A program made the position numbers and the translations under genes. Below, in pieces: positions 8,074-18,091 of a stretch of DNA of 25,110 nt. This DNA comes from a virus. The stretch spans positions 1 through 25,110 of the IMG/VR virus record IMGVR_UViG_3300047480_000274. The stretch is one strand, 5' to 3'. Positions within the stretch are counted from its first letter, which is position 1; the number at the start of each line of letters is the position of its first letter. The notes below the pieces were generated by a model. That model ran no database searches and was not told the origin of the DNA. It saw only the letters and a program-made list of their open reading frames with translations.

Positions 8074-8300
8074 CTGCAAGACAAAAAGCCGAAGAACTTT
8101 TATCCAACTTTGGGGATATAGACCATTTAGGTGTTATAGGAGATTTTATGGGAAATTGGGAATGGAGTTCGTCTTTATGGAGACGACAAGCAAAAGAAGC
8201 CGCGTTAATTTGCGTAGATGAAATTTTAGAAACAATTTCCGAGTATCACTTACAAGCAGAATGGTGGCAAGAAGTTAAACAAGAAATAAAAAAATTATAA
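8070..8300 (+). CDS. Small conserved phage protein, unknown
   Basis: 76 residues, helical and aromatic. It starts MTARQKAEELLSNFGDI and ends with CVDEILETISEYHLQAEWWQ followed by EVKQEIKKL. The pattern 'KAxEL... AxICVDEI ... WWQEVKQEI' is one I recall from many small phage proteins of unknown role in Bacteroidota phages. It is coupled on both sides: ATGA at its start, TAATG at its end. No catalytic motif. Confidence 0.75.
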   Translation: MTARQKAEELLSNFGDIDHLGVIGDFMGNWEWSSSLWRRQAKEAALICVDEILETISEYHLQAEWWQEVKQEIKKL

Positions 8301-8707
8301 TGCAACTAAAGAACAAATTCACGGACTTAATAGAAACAAACGATTTAAGAAAACGGAGCAGAAAACGGAAGTATGTAAACCAACGCGGTTACGTAATTAA
8401 ATTAATGCGCCAGTACGGATTCAGCTATATTGAAATAGGCGAAATGTTAGGACTCAACCACGCAACTTGTATACACGCTTTTAATAACGCTAATCTTTGG
8501 GAATCAATTAAAGATAGGCACTTCTTAAACGACACGGAACACCTTCGCGCTGAAATGAATAACTTTAAGGTTAACAGAACTATGTACGATTTATACCTAG
8601 ACGTTAAAAACGCGGGTGGATTAAAAGACCTTGAACACATTCAAGAACGAATACGGCGCGGTGAATATCTTATAAGTTTTCAACTTGAAGAACAAATATT
8701 GAATTAA
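8300..8707 (+). CDS. DnaA domain-IV-like DNA-binding protein
   Basis: 135 residues. Residues about 26-66 resemble the C-terminal duplex-DNA-binding domain of DnaA: a basic helix (RKRKYVNQRGYVIKLMRQ) followed by a helix-turn-helix, YGFSYIEIGEMLGLNHATCIHA. This parallels the DnaA signature in which an 'S..EIG..FGRDHTTV.HA' helix reads the DnaA box. There is no ATPase domain. The C-terminal third (LRAEMNNFKVNRTMYDLYLD) is helical and charged. It could bind origin or operator sites, recruit replication factors or compete with host DnaA. It lies just ahead of the non-coding RNA and the initiator gene, and starts at a TAATG junction with the previous gene. Confidence 0.68.
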   Translation: MQLKNKFTDLIETNDLRKRSRKRKYVNQRGYVIKLMRQYGFSYIEIGEMLGLNHATCIHAFNNANLWESIKDRHFLNDTEHLRAEMNNFKVNRTMYDLYLDVKNAGGLKDLEHIQERIRRGEYLISFQLEEQILN

Positions 8708-8720
8708 TTAGTTATATTTG
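8685..8720 (+). promoter_or_regulatory. Promoter-like site for the non-coding RNA
   Basis: The core TATATTTG (8713-8720) is identical to the cores of the other three promoters. The nearest upstream TTG (8685-8687) is 25 bases away, longer than the usual 19-21, so the -33 part is weak. Transcription would begin close to 8725, exactly where the paired RNA structure starts. Confidence 0.65.
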
Positions 8721-8724
8721 CATA

Positions 8725-8816
8725 CGCATTCATCCTACATTATAAATGCGAAAAGAAGTTATTAAGCTCTTAAATGAACGTGAGGTAGGATGCACGGGAT
8801 TTTAGGGGCTTTTTTA
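8725..8816 (+). ncRNA. Structured RNA of about 90 nt: two hairpins with complementary loops
   Basis: Hairpin 1: CGCATT (8725-8730) pairs with AATGCG (8745-8750), with a 14-base loop. Hairpin 2: an 11-bp stem, 8764-8774 with 8801-8811 (two G-T pairs), then a 4/4 internal loop, an upper stem CGTG (8779-8782)/CACG (8793-8796) and a 10-base apical loop. The loop of hairpin 1 holds CATCCTAC (8731-8738) and the top of hairpin 2 holds GTAGGATG (8785-8792): a perfect 8-bp loop-loop (kissing) match. Hairpin 2 ends in six T, so it doubles as a terminator. A promoter core ends at 8720 and no credible gene is encoded. It could be a free small RNA, or a leader controlling the 8836 gene and initiator. Not recognised as a known family. 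Confidence 0.7.
8764..8815 (+). terminator. Terminator formed by hairpin 2 of the ncRNA
   Basis: The 11-bp lower stem (8764-8774 with 8801-8811) runs straight into T 8810-8815. Its apical loop also pairs with the loop of the upstream hairpin, so loop-loop contact could alter how well it stops transcription. The replication genes begin 21 bases downstream. Confidence 0.65.
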
Positions 8817-8835
8817 TTGATTAAAATTTTAAGTT

Positions 8836-9015
8836 ATGTTATTAAAAGAAGAAAAGTTTACCACCGATTTCGGTAACGAAGCCTTTACGTTGAGTATTGG
8901 CGAATTAACTAAAAGATTATTGTTTTCTACGGAACACGATACTTTACAATTTGAAAAAGAAGAAGTTGCAGAATTGATTTACATTTTACAAGTGTATTAT
9001 GAGCGGATGGATTAA
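8836..9015 (+). CDS. 59-residue acidic protein ahead of the initiator, unknown
   Basis: ATG at 8836, TAA at 9013-9015, overlapping the initiator start by 17 bases. It starts MLLKEEKFTTDFGNEAF and continues with a helical, hydrophobic/acidic half (IGELTKRLLFSTEHDTLQFE, then KEEVAELIYILQVYYERMD). It is the first gene after the structured RNA and terminator, so its expression may depend on read-through. No family recognised; the tight overlap with the next gene supports it as real. Confidence 0.62.
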   Translation: MLLKEEKFTTDFGNEAFTLSIGELTKRLLFSTEHDTLQFEKEEVAELIYILQVYYERMD

Positions 9016-9679
9016 GATACATAGAAAGTTTTTAGATTGGCAGTGGTTCGAGAAAAGCGAAGCGGTACACTTGTTTATATACTTGCTATTGAAAGCGAAC
9101 CACAAGGATTCCCAATGGCAAGGAGTTGATATTAAACGAGGTCAATTTATTTCGTCTTTAGGTAAGATTTCAACCGATACTGGAATCAGTTTGCAGTCGA
9201 TTAGAACACTATTAAACAAGTTAGAAAAGACGAACGAAATAGAGTTAAAATCAACAAACAAATTTACTATCGTAACTATCTGTAAATATGAGTGTTACCA
9301 AGACGAAACCGAAGAAACTAACAAGCCACTAACAAACAAACAACAAACAACTAACAAACAACTAACAACAAACAAGAATGATAAGAAAGAAAAGAATAAT
9401 AAAGAAGTTATTTTGGATAGGTGGATTGAATACCGAAAACAAATTAAGAAGCCAATTAAAGAAGCCACTCAAGAAACTATTTTAGCTAAGATGGAAAACT
9501 TTACGGAAGAACAATGTAAGTTTGTAATTAACAATTCCATAGAAAACGGGTGGCAGGGTTTATTTTGGGATAAACTACCTAAACACGAAACCGAACTATC
9601 CGACGATTTACAACAAACGGCTAACATACTGGCGAAGTTAAATTATAAAGACACTAGAAACTACAAAGATGCTAACTAA
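8999..9679 (+). CDS. Replication initiator, DnaD/O-like, with winged helix
   Basis: 226 residues. The opening SGWIKIHRKFLDWQWFEKSE and LFIYLLLKANH segment is the hallmark of phage replisome-organiser/DnaD-type N-terminal winged-helix domains. A second helix-turn-helix-like stretch follows (LGKISTDTGISLQSIRTLLNKLEK), giving a DNA-binding domain over residues 1-100. Residues about 105-137 are a low-complexity linker rich in T, N, K and Q, encoded by 11-bp DNA repeats. Residues 138-195 form a compact C-terminal domain (ILDRWIEYRKQIKKPIKEAT; NNSIENGWQGLFW), similar to DnaD C-terminal helices that contact helicase or loader. Gene order (initiator then helicase, 11-base overlap) is the classic phage replication pair. 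By analogy with lambda O, it probably binds the repeats inside its own gene. Confidence 0.82.
   Translation: MSGWIKIHRKFLDWQWFEKSEAVHLFIYLLLKANHKDSQWQGVDIKRGQFISSLGKISTDTGISLQSIRTLLNKLEKTNEIELKSTNKFTIVTICKYECYQDETEETNKPLTNKQQTTNKQLTTNKNDKKEKNNKEVILDRWIEYRKQIKKPIKEATQETILAKMENFTEEQCKFVINNSIENGWQGLFWDKLPKHETELSDDLQQTANILAKLNYKDTRNYKDAN
9317..9371 (+). repeat. Five tandem 11-bp iterons inside the initiator gene: candidate replication origin
   Basis: Units start at 9317, 9328, 9339, 9350 and 9361 and follow ACTAACAAACA. The unit at 9339 differs at two bases, and the first and last units vary in their final three bases. The 11-bp period is not a multiple of three, so successive units are read in different frames; the repeat is therefore kept at the DNA level, not for protein. 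One unit per helical turn would place bound initiator on one DNA face. An A-rich, easily melted stretch follows (9372-9415). The layout parallels the lambda origin within gene O. The strand is almost only A and C here. Confidence 0.75.
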
Positions 9680-10538
9680 ACAAGGAGATAGCTTACAATA
9701 CTTACTTGACTACAAAGAAGGTAAGATTCAACAAGGCTTAAAAATTGACTGCGTACTAGACGATTATTTAAGATTCAAACCTAAGCAACTAAACATCATT
9801 TTAGGACACGATAACGTTGGTAAAACTTATTGGGTATTTTGGTACTTTCTTGTTCTCGCATTAAAACACGGATTAAAATTCTGCATATGGTCGGGAGAAA
9901 ACCAAAAAGGACAAATACTCCGAGATTTAATACAAATGTATTCTGGCGAACCATTTAAGAACTTAACGACTAATCAAATACATTCCTATTCTGCGTACAT
10001 AGAACAATTTTTCTACTTCGTTGATAATAGCAAACTTTACAAGCCGTTGGAACTTTTGGAAATCTTCGCTAAATCAAAATGCGATGTCGGTTTAATTGAC
10101 CCGTTTACTGGGTTAGACCGCGAAATGACATACGAGGGAAATTATACCTTTATGAACAAGGCGCGGGAATTCGTAAACAAAACGGGAATGACTATTTACA
10201 TAAACACGCATCCAAATACTGAAAGTGGAAGAAGCGCCAATTTATACACGGACGGCGATTTTAAGGGACATTTGAAGCCACCATTAAAAGACCACATAGA
10301 AGGCGGTAAGGCTTTTCTAAACCGATGCGACGATATGTTTGTTATTCACAGGCTAATCAAACACGAAACAATGAAATACAACACAATGATAGGAGTGGAA
10401 AAAATAAAGGATATGGAAACGGGCGGTAAGCACACAGGAATCAACGACCAAATTATATGTAATTTTAACTCGGGTTTAGGCTTTGAAGTTTACGGGGTTA
10501 ACCCACTTAAACAAATGAGAAATGGAACTAACAAATAA
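9669..10538 (+). CDS. Replicative helicase-like RecA-fold ATPase (DnaB/RepA type)
   Basis: 289 residues. Walker A is G46-HDNV-G51-K52-T53 in NIILGHDNVGKTYW; Walker B is the hydrophobic strand ending at D144 in CDVGLIDPFTGL. A later ITHP-like strand (MTIYINTHPN) and DHIEGGKAFLNRCDDMFVIHR fit the sensor/motif H3-H4 region of RecA-fold hexameric helicases, close to the RepA/AAA_25 group. There is no N-terminal DnaB domain or primase. It probably unwinds phage DNA as a hexamer loaded by the upstream initiator. It overlaps the initiator by 11 bases and the methyltransferase by 17. An accessory ATPase or loader role is the main alternative. Confidence 0.8.
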   Translation: MLTKQGDSLQYLLDYKEGKIQQGLKIDCVLDDYLRFKPKQLNIILGHDNVGKTYWVFWYFLVLALKHGLKFCIWSGENQKGQILRDLIQMYSGEPFKNLTTNQIHSYSAYIEQFFYFVDNSKLYKPLELLEIFAKSKCDVGLIDPFTGLDREMTYEGNYTFMNKAREFVNKTGMTIYINTHPNTESGRSANLYTDGDFKGHLKPPLKDHIEGGKAFLNRCDDMFVIHRLIKHETMKYNTMIGVEKIKDMETGGKHTGINDQIICNFNSGLGFEVYGVNPLKQMRNGTNK

Positions 10539-11154
10539 AATAAGAATAACCAACGAGGATAATATGCTACTAATGGCACGTTACCCCGACAAATACTTTG
10601 ACTTGGCTATTGTTGACCCGCCGTATGGCATTAACATAAATGTTTCAATGGGTCGTAGAAAAGGAGATAAAAAAAGTAATTACCATAAATTTGCTGGTGG
10701 AGATAGTGAAATACCAAATGAAAAATATTTTAGTGAATTGTTTCGTGTTTCTGCAAATCAAATTGTTTGGGGTGGTAATTATATGACTGAATTTTTAAAG
10801 CCTTCTTCTTGTTGGTTGCTTTGGGATAAAGGTTTTTCTGAAGATGTTACATTTGCACAATTCGAAATGGCTTGGACTTCTTTTAATTCAAGTGCCAAAA
10901 AATACGACAAACACCCCAACCAATTAAATAGAATACACCCAACACAAAAACCCGTTGCACTTTACAAATGGATTCTTGACAAGTACGCAAAGCAAGGCGA
11001 CAAGATACTTGACACGCATTTAGGTAGTGGAAGTATTGCAATAGCGTGCCACGACTACGGCTTTGAGTTAACCGCTTGTGAATTAGATTCCGAATACTAC
11101 GAAAAAGCGATACAAAGAATTAAAAACCATATTTCACAACAAAAACTATTCTAA
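10522..11154 (+). CDS. DNA adenine/N4-cytosine methyltransferase, beta-type motif order
   Basis: 210 residues. Motif IV D32-PPYG comes first, HPTQKP (139-144) follows, and the AdoMet-binding motif I (KILDTHLGSGSIAIAC, about 161-176) comes last, the beta-class order. It would methylate the exocyclic amine of A (N6) or C (N4) in a short site. The target recognition region should lie between motif IV and HPTQKP. That middle part (about 10632-10900) has clearly different base usage from its flanks: only three or so CG dinucleotides in 270 bases against one every 15-20 in neighbours, and many T-rich codons. This suggests a swapped recognition cassette. It is short for the family but has all key motifs. 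Confidence 0.88.
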   Translation: MELTNKIRITNEDNMLLMARYPDKYFDLAIVDPPYGININVSMGRRKGDKKSNYHKFAGGDSEIPNEKYFSELFRVSANQIVWGGNYMTEFLKPSSCWLLWDKGFSEDVTFAQFEMAWTSFNSSAKKYDKHPNQLNRIHPTQKPVALYKWILDKYAKQGDKILDTHLGSGSIAIACHDYGFELTACELDSEYYEKAIQRIKNHISQQKLF

Positions 11155-11442: not shown

Positions 11443-12522
11443 ATGAAACAAGAACATAAATTCAAATATAATTGGACATTAAAAGATGCCAATTTTACAA
11501 AAGACAAAGGAAAGGTATTTAGTTGTTTTGCTTGTGGTGGTGGTTCAACTATGGGGTATAAATTAGCAGGTTTTGATGTTATAGGACACAATGACATTGA
11601 TAAAAAAATGATAGAAGTTTACAAAGAAAATCATAAACCAAAATTTAGTTATCACGAATCAATTACGACTTTTGCCAAAAGAAAAGATTTACCAAAAGAG
11701 TTATATGAATTAGATATTTTAGACGGTTCACCGCCTTGTTCAAGTTTTTCAATGGCGGGAAATCGTGAAAAAGATTGGGGCAAAGAAAAGGTTTTTCGTG
11801 AGGGTCAAGAATTACAAGTTTTAGACACTTTGTTTTTTGATTTTATTGATTTAGCAAAAGAACTACAACCAAAAGTTGTAGTGGCTGAAAACGTAAAAGG
11901 TCTTTTATTAGGAGCTGCAAAAGAATATGTAATTAAGATATACAAAGCATTCGATGAAGCAGGTTATTATTGCCAACATTTTTTACTTGACGCTTCTAAA
12001 ATGGGCGTACCTCAAAGGCGAGAACGTGTATTTTTTATTTGTTTACGTAAAGATTTAGCAACTAAATTTTTATATCAAGCTGATATATTTACGGAATTAC
12101 CAAAAATAGAAATGAATTTTAATGAAGAAATAATAATATTTAATGAAATAAGAGATTATAGCGGCAAAATAGATAGGCCATTAAAAGGAAATGAATTACC
12201 AAGGATATGGAATTTAAGAAAAAATGGCGATTCGGATATGAGTTGTTCAACTAAAAGAGAAACGGGAAAAGAAAAGTTTTTTTCATATAATTATATTTAT
12301 AATCATAAAGTATTAAATACAATTACCGCAAAAGATTGTAATATTTTATTTGATGAATGTAGGTATTTGAATAACATTGAAAATCAAAAAGCGGGCAGCT
12401 ACCCACTAGATTATAATTTTTTAGATGTTAAACCTCATTATTTAATTGGAATGTCAGTACCTCCAATAATGACGGCACAAATAGCTACTAATATATACGA
12501 ACAATGGTTGTTAAAATTATGA
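11443..12522 (+). CDS. DNA C5-cytosine methyltransferase
   Basis: 359 residues with the ordered motifs of the family: I FACGGGSTMG (about 29-38), IV GSPPCSSFS with catalytic C99, VI AENVKGL (E149-N150-V151), VIII QRRERVFFI (191-199), a recognition region about 215-300, and a C-terminal motif X (MSVPPIMTAQIATNIY). It transfers methyl from AdoMet to carbon 5 of cytosine. The length is normal and I see no break. No cognate restriction enzyme lies beside it, so it is probably a protective orphan enzyme. Base usage over the whole gene is CG-poor and A/T-rich compared with neighbours, suggesting recent gain. It joins NinG by an ATGA overlap. Confidence 0.95.
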   Translation: MKQEHKFKYNWTLKDANFTKDKGKVFSCFACGGGSTMGYKLAGFDVIGHNDIDKKMIEVYKENHKPKFSYHESITTFAKRKDLPKELYELDILDGSPPCSSFSMAGNREKDWGKEKVFREGQELQVLDTLFFDFIDLAKELQPKVVVAENVKGLLLGAAKEYVIKIYKAFDEAGYYCQHFLLDASKMGVPQRRERVFFICLRKDLATKFLYQADIFTELPKIEMNFNEEIIIFNEIRDYSGKIDRPLKGNELPRIWNLRKNGDSDMSCSTKRETGKEKFFSYNYIYNHKVLNTITAKDCNILFDECRYLNNIENQKAGSYPLDYNFLDVKPHYLIGMSVPPIMTAQIATNIYEQWLLKL

Positions 12523-16539: not shown

Positions 16540-16932
16540 ATGGCACGACCAAGAAAAAAACAAGCCGAAGGATTAGGCGACACGGTAGAAAACATTTTAG
16601 AAGTTACTGGAATAGCTAAGGTAGCTAAATGGGTATTAGGCGAAGACTGCGGCTGCGAAGAACGCAAACAAAAGTTAAACGACCTTTGGAGATACACTAA
16701 ACCCGAATGCCTAACGGAAGACGAATACACCTACCTAGACGAATTCTTTAAGAAGGGTAGAAATTCAGTTGCACCCAGTGAACAACGAGAACTATTAAAG
16801 ATTTACAATCGAGTATTTAAGCAAAGAATGCAACCTACTTCGTGTGGTTCTTGTCTACGGGAAGTAGTGAACAAATTAAACCAACTTTACGCAATTTATA
16901 AAGAGGAGCAAGATGCAGTTAGTGAAGATTAA
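16540..16932 (+). CDS. Cys-motif protein upstream of terminase, unknown
   Basis: 130 residues. A basic start (MARPRKKQAEGLGDTVENIL) is followed by GEDCGCEERKQKLNDLW, PECLTEDEYTYLDEFF and a C-terminal SCGSCLREVVNKLNQLY. The DCGC and SCGSC pairs could bind one metal ion together. I recall similar proteins just ahead of terminase genes in Bacteroidota phages, with no known role. A packaging or DNA-binding accessory is plausible. It starts seven bases after the sigma gene and overlaps the ParB-methyltransferase gene by 20. Confidence 0.72.
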   Translation: MARPRKKQAEGLGDTVENILEVTGIAKVAKWVLGEDCGCEERKQKLNDLWRYTKPECLTEDEYTYLDEFFKKGRNSVAPSEQRELLKIYNRVFKQRMQPTSCGSCLREVVNKLNQLYAIYKEEQDAVSED

Positions 16933-18091
16933 CGAGGTTAAACCAAACCCAAAGAACCCACGGATAATAAAAGACGAAAAGTTTAATAAACTTGTAAAGA
17001 GCATACAGGAGTTTCCCGATATGCTTAATAAGCGCCCGTTAATCGTTTTTACTGACACGGATGGTAGATACGTTGTCTTGGGTGGAAATATGCGATTAAA
17101 AGCGTTAAAAGAACTAAACTACAAAGAAATACCAATAATCTTAGCAGATGAATGGACGGAAGAACAAAAAGCGGAGTTTTTAATCAAAGATAACGTAGGT
17201 TTTGGGGAATGGGATTGGGATAGTTTAGCGAATGAATGGGACGTAGAAAAATTAGACGATTGGGGTTTAGATTTGCCAGTTGATTTATCGGTTGCAGAAG
17301 AACTTGAAGCTGAAGAAGATAATTACGAAATTCCTGACGAGATAAACACGGACATAGTTTTAGGAGATTTATTTGAAATAGGCGAACACCGTTTACTTTG
17401 TGGGGATTCAACCGATAGCGACCAAGTGGCAAAGCTAATGAACGGGCAAAAGGCTGATATGGTATTTACCGACCCGCCTTATGGAGTAGATTATCAAGGG
17501 GGAGCATTAACTAAAAGAACAAAATTAGATAATGACCAAAAAAATACAAGTATATATCAAGAAGTAATACCAAATCTTTATTTGTTTACAATTGATAAAG
17601 TAGCTATGTATATTTGGCACGCTGCTGGATATGCTGATATGGCTTCTCACTTGGGCGATAATGATATACAAATAAGAAGTCAAATTATATGGAATAAAAA
17701 TATGGCTCAATTTGGTGCGTTATCTGCTCAATACAAACAAAAGCACGAACCTTGTTTTTATTGTTATAAGAAAGGACAATCTCCATATTGGTATGGTCCA
17801 ACAAATGAAGTAACAGTTTGGGATGTTAAAAGAGAATCTAAAAATGAATATCACCCAACTCAAAAACCTATTGAATTGCCAGAAAGGGCTATAAATAATA
17901 GTAGTAAAGTAAATGATATAGTTCTTGATTTATTTGGCGGCAGTGGTTCAACAATGGTAGCTTCACACCAACTTAAACGCAAATGTTACGGAATGGAATT
18001 AGACCCTAAGTATTGCCAAGTTATTATTGACCGAATGAAAAAATTAGACCCAAATTTAGTTATTAAGAAGAATGGAGTTGAATTGAAATAA
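16913..18091 (+). CDS. ParB-domain / DNA methyltransferase fusion
   Basis: 392 residues. Residues 1-95 are a ParB/sulfiredoxin-like domain (LVKINEVKPNPKNPRIIKDE; VVLGGNMRLKALKEL), which in phage proteins may act as a DNA-binding or NTPase module. Residues about 145-385 are a beta-class methyltransferase: NTDIVLGDLFEIGEHRLLCG, motif IV D187-PPYG, HPTQKP (314-319), then motif I DLFGGSGSTM (339-348). It would methylate A (N6) or C (N4). The part between motif IV and HPTQKP (about 17480-17870) and on to about 17960 is CG-poor and T-rich against native-style flanks, suggesting a replaced recognition region. Its position next to small terminase suggests marking of DNA before packaging. Confidence 0.9.
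   Translation: MQLVKINEVKPNPKNPRIIKDEKFNKLVKSIQEFPDMLNKRPLIVFTDTDGRYVVLGGNMRLKALKELNYKEIPIILADEWTEEQKAEFLIKDNVGFGEWDWDSLANEWDVEKLDDWGLDLPVDLSVAEELEAEEDNYEIPDEINTDIVLGDLFEIGEHRLLCGDSTDSDQVAKLMNGQKADMVFTDPPYGVDYQGGALTKRTKLDNDQKNTSIYQEVIPNLYLFTIDKVAMYIWHAAGYADMASHLGDNDIQIRSQIIWNKNMAQFGALSAQYKQKHEPCFYCYKKGQSPYWYGPTNEVTVWDVKRESKNEYHPTQKPIELPERAINNSSKVNDIVLDLFGGSGSTMVASHQLKRKCYGMELDPKYCQVIIDRMKKLDPNLVIKKNGVELK

Follow-up and report, generated by a model that had tools for sequence, protein, structure and literature searches.

Genomic setting and layout of the leader

The element studied here lies in the 25,110-nt virus record IMGVR_UViG_3300047480_000274, referred to as the window and numbered on its plus strand, on which all features below are encoded. 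Upstream of the element, positions 8300-8707 encode a helix-turn-helix protein resembling DnaA domain IV (Pfam PF08299, E 1.5e-8), which is a stand-alone version of that domain without the ATPase. Downstream, a 59-aa ORF (8836-9015) is followed by genes for a DnaD-like helicase loader (8999-9679; PHROG 2514, E 6.8e-31) and a primase/helicase-like ATPase (9669-10538; PHROG 18375 and 239, E 5e-17). Elsewhere in the window lie an N6/N4 DNA methylase and two more ORFs whose motifs suggest methyltransferases (10522-11154, 11443-12522 and 16913-18091).

The intergenic region begins with TATATTTG (8713-8720), which matches the TAnnTTTG consensus for the -7 box of Bacteroidetes sigma-A promoters. This consensus sits at -12 to -5 in Flavobacterium psychrophilum (PMC9723704), so the expected +1 is 8725, where the first stem begins; a first-pass annotation of the sequence had ended the promoter core at 8720, in agreement with this Flavobacterium spacing. 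It is possible that the DnaA domain IV-like protein regulates this promoter. The other three intergenic plus-strand TATATTTG boxes in the window (7170, 13439 and 15975) are probably promoters of other operons and have leaders of 12-29 nt, which makes the long leader special to the replication operon.

The leader RNA, predicted to run from +1 to the end of a U-tract (8725-8815; about 90 bases) on the basis of promoter spacing, covariation and a covariance model match at 8721-8815, would fold into two hairpins joined by an 8-bp loop-to-loop helix. Stem 1 (8725-8730 paired with 8745-8750) encloses W, the loop 1 half of this helix (CATCCTAC, 8731-8738), and the conserved, unpaired 3' part of the loop, ATTATA (8739-8744). 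Then follows an A-rich linker with TTATT at its end (8751-8763). Stem 2 (8764-8774 with 8801-8811) leads through a conserved 4x4 internal loop, TGAA (8775-8778) facing GGAT (8797-8800), to an upper stem (8779-8782 with 8793-8796). A 2-nt AG/AA step (8783-8784) lies directly 5' of W', the loop 2 half (GTAGGATG, 8785-8792), which is the exact complement of W and joins the 3' arm of the upper stem with no linker. The T-run at 8810-8815, which shares its first two positions with the 3' arm of stem 2, gives the RNA an intrinsic-terminator-like end 20 nt before the ATG of the 59-aa ORF, and no TAnnTTTG box occurs between the U-tract and this ATG in the window. The first-pass annotation had placed the promoter, both hairpins and the upper stem correctly, and its description of the T-run was right, as was its claim that the hairpin 1 loop and the hairpin 2 apical loop are exactly complementary (CATCCTAC and GTAGGATG).

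Within the window, CATCCTAC was found solely at the two loop sites, with 0.21 matches expected. The single-sequence fold of the element is unremarkable (minimum free energy -20.7 kcal/mol, z -1.2, 24 of 200 shuffled sequences as good), and the case for the element therefore rests on comparison.

Distribution of the leader and covariation of its helices

Relatives were gathered from IMG/VR by matching an exact 14-mer of hairpin 2 and by searching with the proteins encoded downstream, and 20 of these formed an alignment (A2) from which a covariance model (R1) was built with the loop-loop helix left out. R1 placed the element in most of 80 loci that carry a related DnaD-like gene, with 71 strong full-length matches including the window, and members picked without any loop-loop criterion still kept the loop-loop match, one of them via a G-U pair. 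A gene-blind scan for TATATTTG, a gap and ACATTATA added dozens more members among the matches listed, and the family extends beyond these. A finder that required the promoter, stem 1, the loop 1 end motif and the terminator (TTTT), with the loop-loop match left free, returned 107 sequences comprising one false positive and 106 members; the promoter, hairpin 1, hairpin 2 and T-run thus occur as a unit in at least 106 distinct phage-contig sequences. Although it was not required, loop-loop pairing is complete (8/8) in 100 of the 106 members and 7/8 in the other six, across 35 different W sequences (alleles). Unpaired positions are also conserved: the end of loop 1 reads ATTATA in 72/106 members and ACCATA in 13/106, TGAA and GGAT are each found in 58/106, and the linker is 13 nt long in 42/106 (range 8-29).

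The promoter box lies immediately 5' of the element in family members. Stem 1 begins 4-6 nt past the box in most of them, within about 2 nt of the expected +1, and a -33 element showed no clear conservation among members. Median distances are 7 nt from the upstream stop codon to the box and 20 nt from the T-run to the next ATG. The DnaA domain IV-like family is encoded upstream in 66/98 members. The leader stands before replication or other early genes: in most cases a DnaD-like helicase loader comes next, directly or after a small ORF, and other genes occur as well. Whole-record searches found a single copy in 23 of 24 matching records. One 47-kb contig (G407) carries two copies with different alleles (CGTCTAAC in L449 and GGTCTCAC in L450), which may reflect two replication modules or a chimera, while records G400 and G404 have the replication gene and no leader. 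In a search for bacterial hosts, none of 395 genomes from the phylum accessed via L190, a group that may hold few suitable hosts, gave a match, and a protein search of bacterial genome contigs returned distant DnaD relatives only.

R1, which was fitted to the stems and not to the loop-loop helix, was used to make a 96-member alignment with 93 distinct rows. Standard pairs fill 98.7% of its 2619 cells, compared with 65.6% after shuffling and 33-47% when partners were slid, two-sided changes occur in 27 of the 29 pairs, and the covariation score reaches 0.874 against 0.224. Stem 1 is paired in 97.5% of cells, with two-sided changes in 6/6 pairs; stem 2 is paired in 97.8-98.9% of cells, with two-sided changes in all counted pairs; and the upper stem is paired in 100% of cells, with two-sided changes in 4/4 pairs. 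The loop-loop helix, at 99.6% of cells, has two-sided changes in 6/8 pairs, and its last two pairs (A-U and C-G) are invariant. Complementary hairpin loops and compensatory changes between them, the features by which a kissing RNA is recognised, were therefore both found across 93 distinct sequences, and the test that the first-pass annotation had named, conservation and covariation in related phages, came out strongly in its favour.

A second, independent, anchored alignment was scored by corrected mutual information over all column pairs. Ranks 1-21 all fall within the four proposed helices, and the loop-loop helix takes ranks 1 and 2. No competing helix appeared among the top covarying pairs of this alignment, from which a short or invariant antiterminator could escape. 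As no antiterminator helix is supported by covariation, a classical two-state attenuator or riboswitch appears unlikely.

G-U pairs are rare in the loop-loop helix (3/848 cells, compared with 181/848 in stem 2), and its calculated duplex energy ranges from -9.4 to -14.7 kcal/mol (-10.4 in the window). W pairs change more slowly than stem pairs (0.43 versus 0.57-0.62 differing pairs), and among close relatives the values are 0.14 in W, 0.27 in stem 1 and 0.38 in stem 2. These lower rates give no sign of diversifying selection on W, and that reading was rejected. The loop-loop helix has been rewritten dozens of times and never broken, which argues that this is a real functional RNA; judged by this comparative evidence, the kissing-loop leader, carried by many phages of flavobacteria, is genuine and formerly uncatalogued, with good support for its structure, its position and its novelty.

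Other explanations for the conservation were rejected. A leader peptide starting at 8747 (MRKEVIKLLNEREVGCTGF) has no conserved frame because its start codon lies within stem 1, whose sequence varies, and a DNA-binding site was ruled out because both arms change together and complementarity alone is conserved. An antisense RNA was also set aside, given that there is no consistent antisense promoter: reverse-strand boxes of the TAnnTTTG type, the only type sought, occur downstream in 7/107 members and inside the element in 0/107.

Divergent forms in cultured phages

When a main-branch member was compared with named phages by BLAST, only low-complexity matches appeared, and members among these phages were reached via Cellulophaga baltica phage phi18:3, which has the element (E 3e-7) with the loops CTTCTGAC and GTCAGAAG. 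Its relatives phi46:3, phi13:2 and phi19:3 carry a divergent form with CTCTCAC and GTGAGAG. In the Flavobacterium phages morran9-1, lillamy9-1, mumin6-1 and FCV-1, the loops are swapped between the hairpins, with AA-GTGAGAAG in hairpin 1 and CTTCTCAC-AATAC in hairpin 2, and further alleles of this form (GTGAGACG, GTGGAACG and GTAGAGAG) also have an exact loop match. A scan for the hairpin 1 half of the swapped form found the full 8/8 partner in 8/8 matches with a promoter directly upstream, compared with 0/112 matches without a promoter. A minor third branch (L129, L130, L091 and L175) has 7-nt loops that pair over their full length, whereas the main branch pairs 8 nt inside loops of 14 and 10 nt. 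As a separate observation, GGTAATCTTAAAACC occurs between hairpin 2 and the ATG (L309:2763-2777 and L314:1529-1545) in the phi18:3 and Lillamyvirus leaders and in 0 main-branch members.

The U-tract differs between these groups. Among main-branch members, the 8 nt after stem 2 contain a mean of 6.6 T's (the finder having required TTTT), and at least five T's are present in 99% of members versus 12% of background windows. In the loop-swapped Flavobacterium phages the U-tract is sometimes interrupted, as in FCV-1 (CTTAACTTTTT), or absent, as in L436, while the loop-loop helix is retained. The proposal of the first-pass annotation that hairpin 2 is also a terminator accordingly holds for stem 2 and its U-tract in the main branch, and does not extend to some Flavobacterium phages, where the U-tract is weak or absent. 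The sequence features of a terminator or attenuator, a G+C-rich hairpin with a U-tract ahead of the first gene, were found for the leader, with L436 falling outside this description and FCV-1 conforming weakly. Since the clamp persists even in phages with a broken or missing U-tract, the clamped fold, and not the terminator, is the universal part, and termination is not the whole function everywhere.

Bacteroidota phages dominate many waters. To our knowledge, the timing of their replication genes is hardly known, and we know of few regulatory parts in Bacteroidota. Because the leader is present in cultured, annotated phages (phi18:3, Lillamyvirus, Muminvirus and the F. columnare phage FCV-1), it is directly testable. 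With dozens of allele pairs and a natural loop exchange, its loop-loop helix ranks among the clearest natural covarying kissing interactions, and these pairs and exchanges are useful for RNA 3D prediction and for switch engineering in Bacteroidota.

Proposed function and relation to known systems

The leader is probably a control switch heading the replication operon. The reading that we favour, at about even odds, is a structured 5' leader that serves as an attenuator, its loop-loop helix clamping the fold around an intrinsic terminator. RNA polymerase would start at 8725, and hairpin 1 would fold on leaving the enzyme, its loop W waiting until the emerging hairpin 2 loop W' could pair with it and lock the two hairpins side by side. 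Stem 2 would then close over the U-tract and act as an intrinsic terminator, 20 nt upstream of the first start codon. Some transcripts would end there as a short RNA of about 90 nt and the others would read through into the replication genes as their mRNA, a split that the loop-loop clamp would set or at which it would be the point of regulation. In favour of this model are the four covarying helices, the U-tract, the short distance to the next ATG, the long leader at this operon alone among those compared in the window, the single copy in nearly all matching records and the confinement of the loop-loop pair to the element. The data show the helices, the loop-loop helix, the promoter position, the U-tract and the location ahead of early genes; that transcripts terminate, that the clamp modulates this and that the loops pair inside a single molecule are steps that we infer. 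On geometric grounds, such pairing appears feasible with linkers of 8-29 nt: the zero-length joins at the 5' end of W and the 3' end of W' bring the two stems together at one end of the loop-loop helix, an arrangement that would let hairpin 1 bend back beside hairpin 2 and that the 13-nt linker is long enough to allow. Leader RNAs may instead form a homodimer.

Several features of the leader could also be accommodated by other functions. It seems doubtful that it is a free-standing, stable ncRNA of about 90 nt with a trans-acting role on a protein of the host or phage, or on one of their RNAs by way of its conserved unpaired parts, with the downstream genes transcribed mainly by read-through from upstream. 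Its own promoter, the structure from the first nucleotide and the U-tract would suit such an RNA, and the conserved unpaired ATTATA, TTATT and TGAA/GGAT exceed the needs of pairing, but the fixed spacing to the ATG, with no intervening TAnnTTTG box in the window, ties the leader to the downstream gene, and members with weak U-tracts are hard to reconcile with a free RNA. The retention of the clamp where the U-tract is broken or missing would be explained by an element like put of phage HK022, in which the clamped RNA, bound to the elongation complex or to a phage protein, would suppress downstream pausing or termination, the U-tract being secondary. Two hairpins at the extreme 5' end of an early transcript are consistent with this, as are the internal loop and the unpaired loop 1 tail, which a protein could read. 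We nevertheless regard it as unlikely: nearly every main-branch member has a strong U-tract after stem 2, which would be odd for an antiterminator, and no loop-loop helix is reported for putRNA in the part of the source available to us (PMC9378689).

A compact fold might alternatively serve as a cap-like stabiliser that guards the early mRNA against 5'-end-dependent decay or host nucleases and leaves the start codon region open. Although stem 1 lies near +1 in most members and hairpin 2 ends about 20 nt 5' of the ATG, this is quite improbable, since such a role needs neither an elaborate loop-loop helix nor a terminator-like end, and the leaders of other operons in this phage are short. The allelic diversity of W raises a further scenario, a P4-like incompatibility or immunity acting in trans, where W' of accumulated short RNA pairs with nascent W and alleles define immunity groups. 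Phages isolated on the same Flavobacterium hosts do carry different alleles, as do the two copies on a single contig, and the 35 W alleles would be in keeping with such groups. However, W changes more slowly than the stems, there is no antisense gene, and second targets for W or W' elsewhere in the phage sequence searched showed no excess (8 seen, 7.7 expected), so we judge this highly improbable.

Beyond the attenuator model, the swapped leaders allow a broader interpretation, offered tentatively, of a portable kissing-loop module that fits a two-hairpin leader in both orientations and acts as an RNA-only co-transcriptional switch or a polymerase-modifying element in Bacteroidota phage replication operons. 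Its loop alpha would consist of N6-AC and AnnATA and its loop beta of A-R/N and GU-N6, and it would involve no ligand, antisense RNA or leader peptide.

Among known systems, put is described in PMC9378689 as two stem-loops that act in cis on RNA polymerase. HK022 put resembles the leader in having a pair of stem-loops near the start of a phage early transcript, a proposed action in cis and a length of about 70-90 nt, but suppresses termination via the RNA polymerase zinc-binding domain. In a comparison by architecture only, the leader differs in the U-tract after hairpin 2, the complementary loops, the host and the sequence. Plasmid attenuators of the pT181/pIP501 type share a replication-gene leader, a terminator and loop-loop recognition, but there the kissing is with an antisense RNA made from the other strand, whereas both partners here belong to one transcript and an antisense promoter was not found. 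ColE1 RNA I and RNA II also have complementary hairpin loops, and the 7-nt loops of the minor branch pair over their full length likewise; the leader, in contrast, does not consist of two transcripts, and its main branch pairs part of larger loops. The P4 immunity (CI) RNA and P1/P7 c4 are small phage RNAs complementary to their own leader that cause early termination, but the leader has no separate target, no Rfam match (c4 included) and a slow-evolving W. Intramolecular contacts between loops also organise riboswitch leaders such as the purine riboswitch; unlike these, the present leader has no visible ligand-binding core, and its contact is a full 8-bp Watson-Crick helix with sequence-free covariation. 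None of put, the plasmid attenuators, ColE1, P4 or c4 is assignable to the leader.

The first-pass annotation recognised no known RNA family and called for an Rfam search, and Rfam 15 indeed gave no match for positions 8600-8950 at E up to 5, none for the whole window at the gathering score and none over the element in L309, L311, L314 and L129. A search of the main text of open papers yielded no account of this element. We class the leader as a new RNA family whose way of working most resembles that of a phage transcription leader or attenuator; its architecture is undescribed in the literature searched. A separate structured RNA lies about 1.3 kb upstream of the morran9-1 leader, where L314:57-91 corresponds to the Rfam DUF805b RNA (RF02914, 52 bits).
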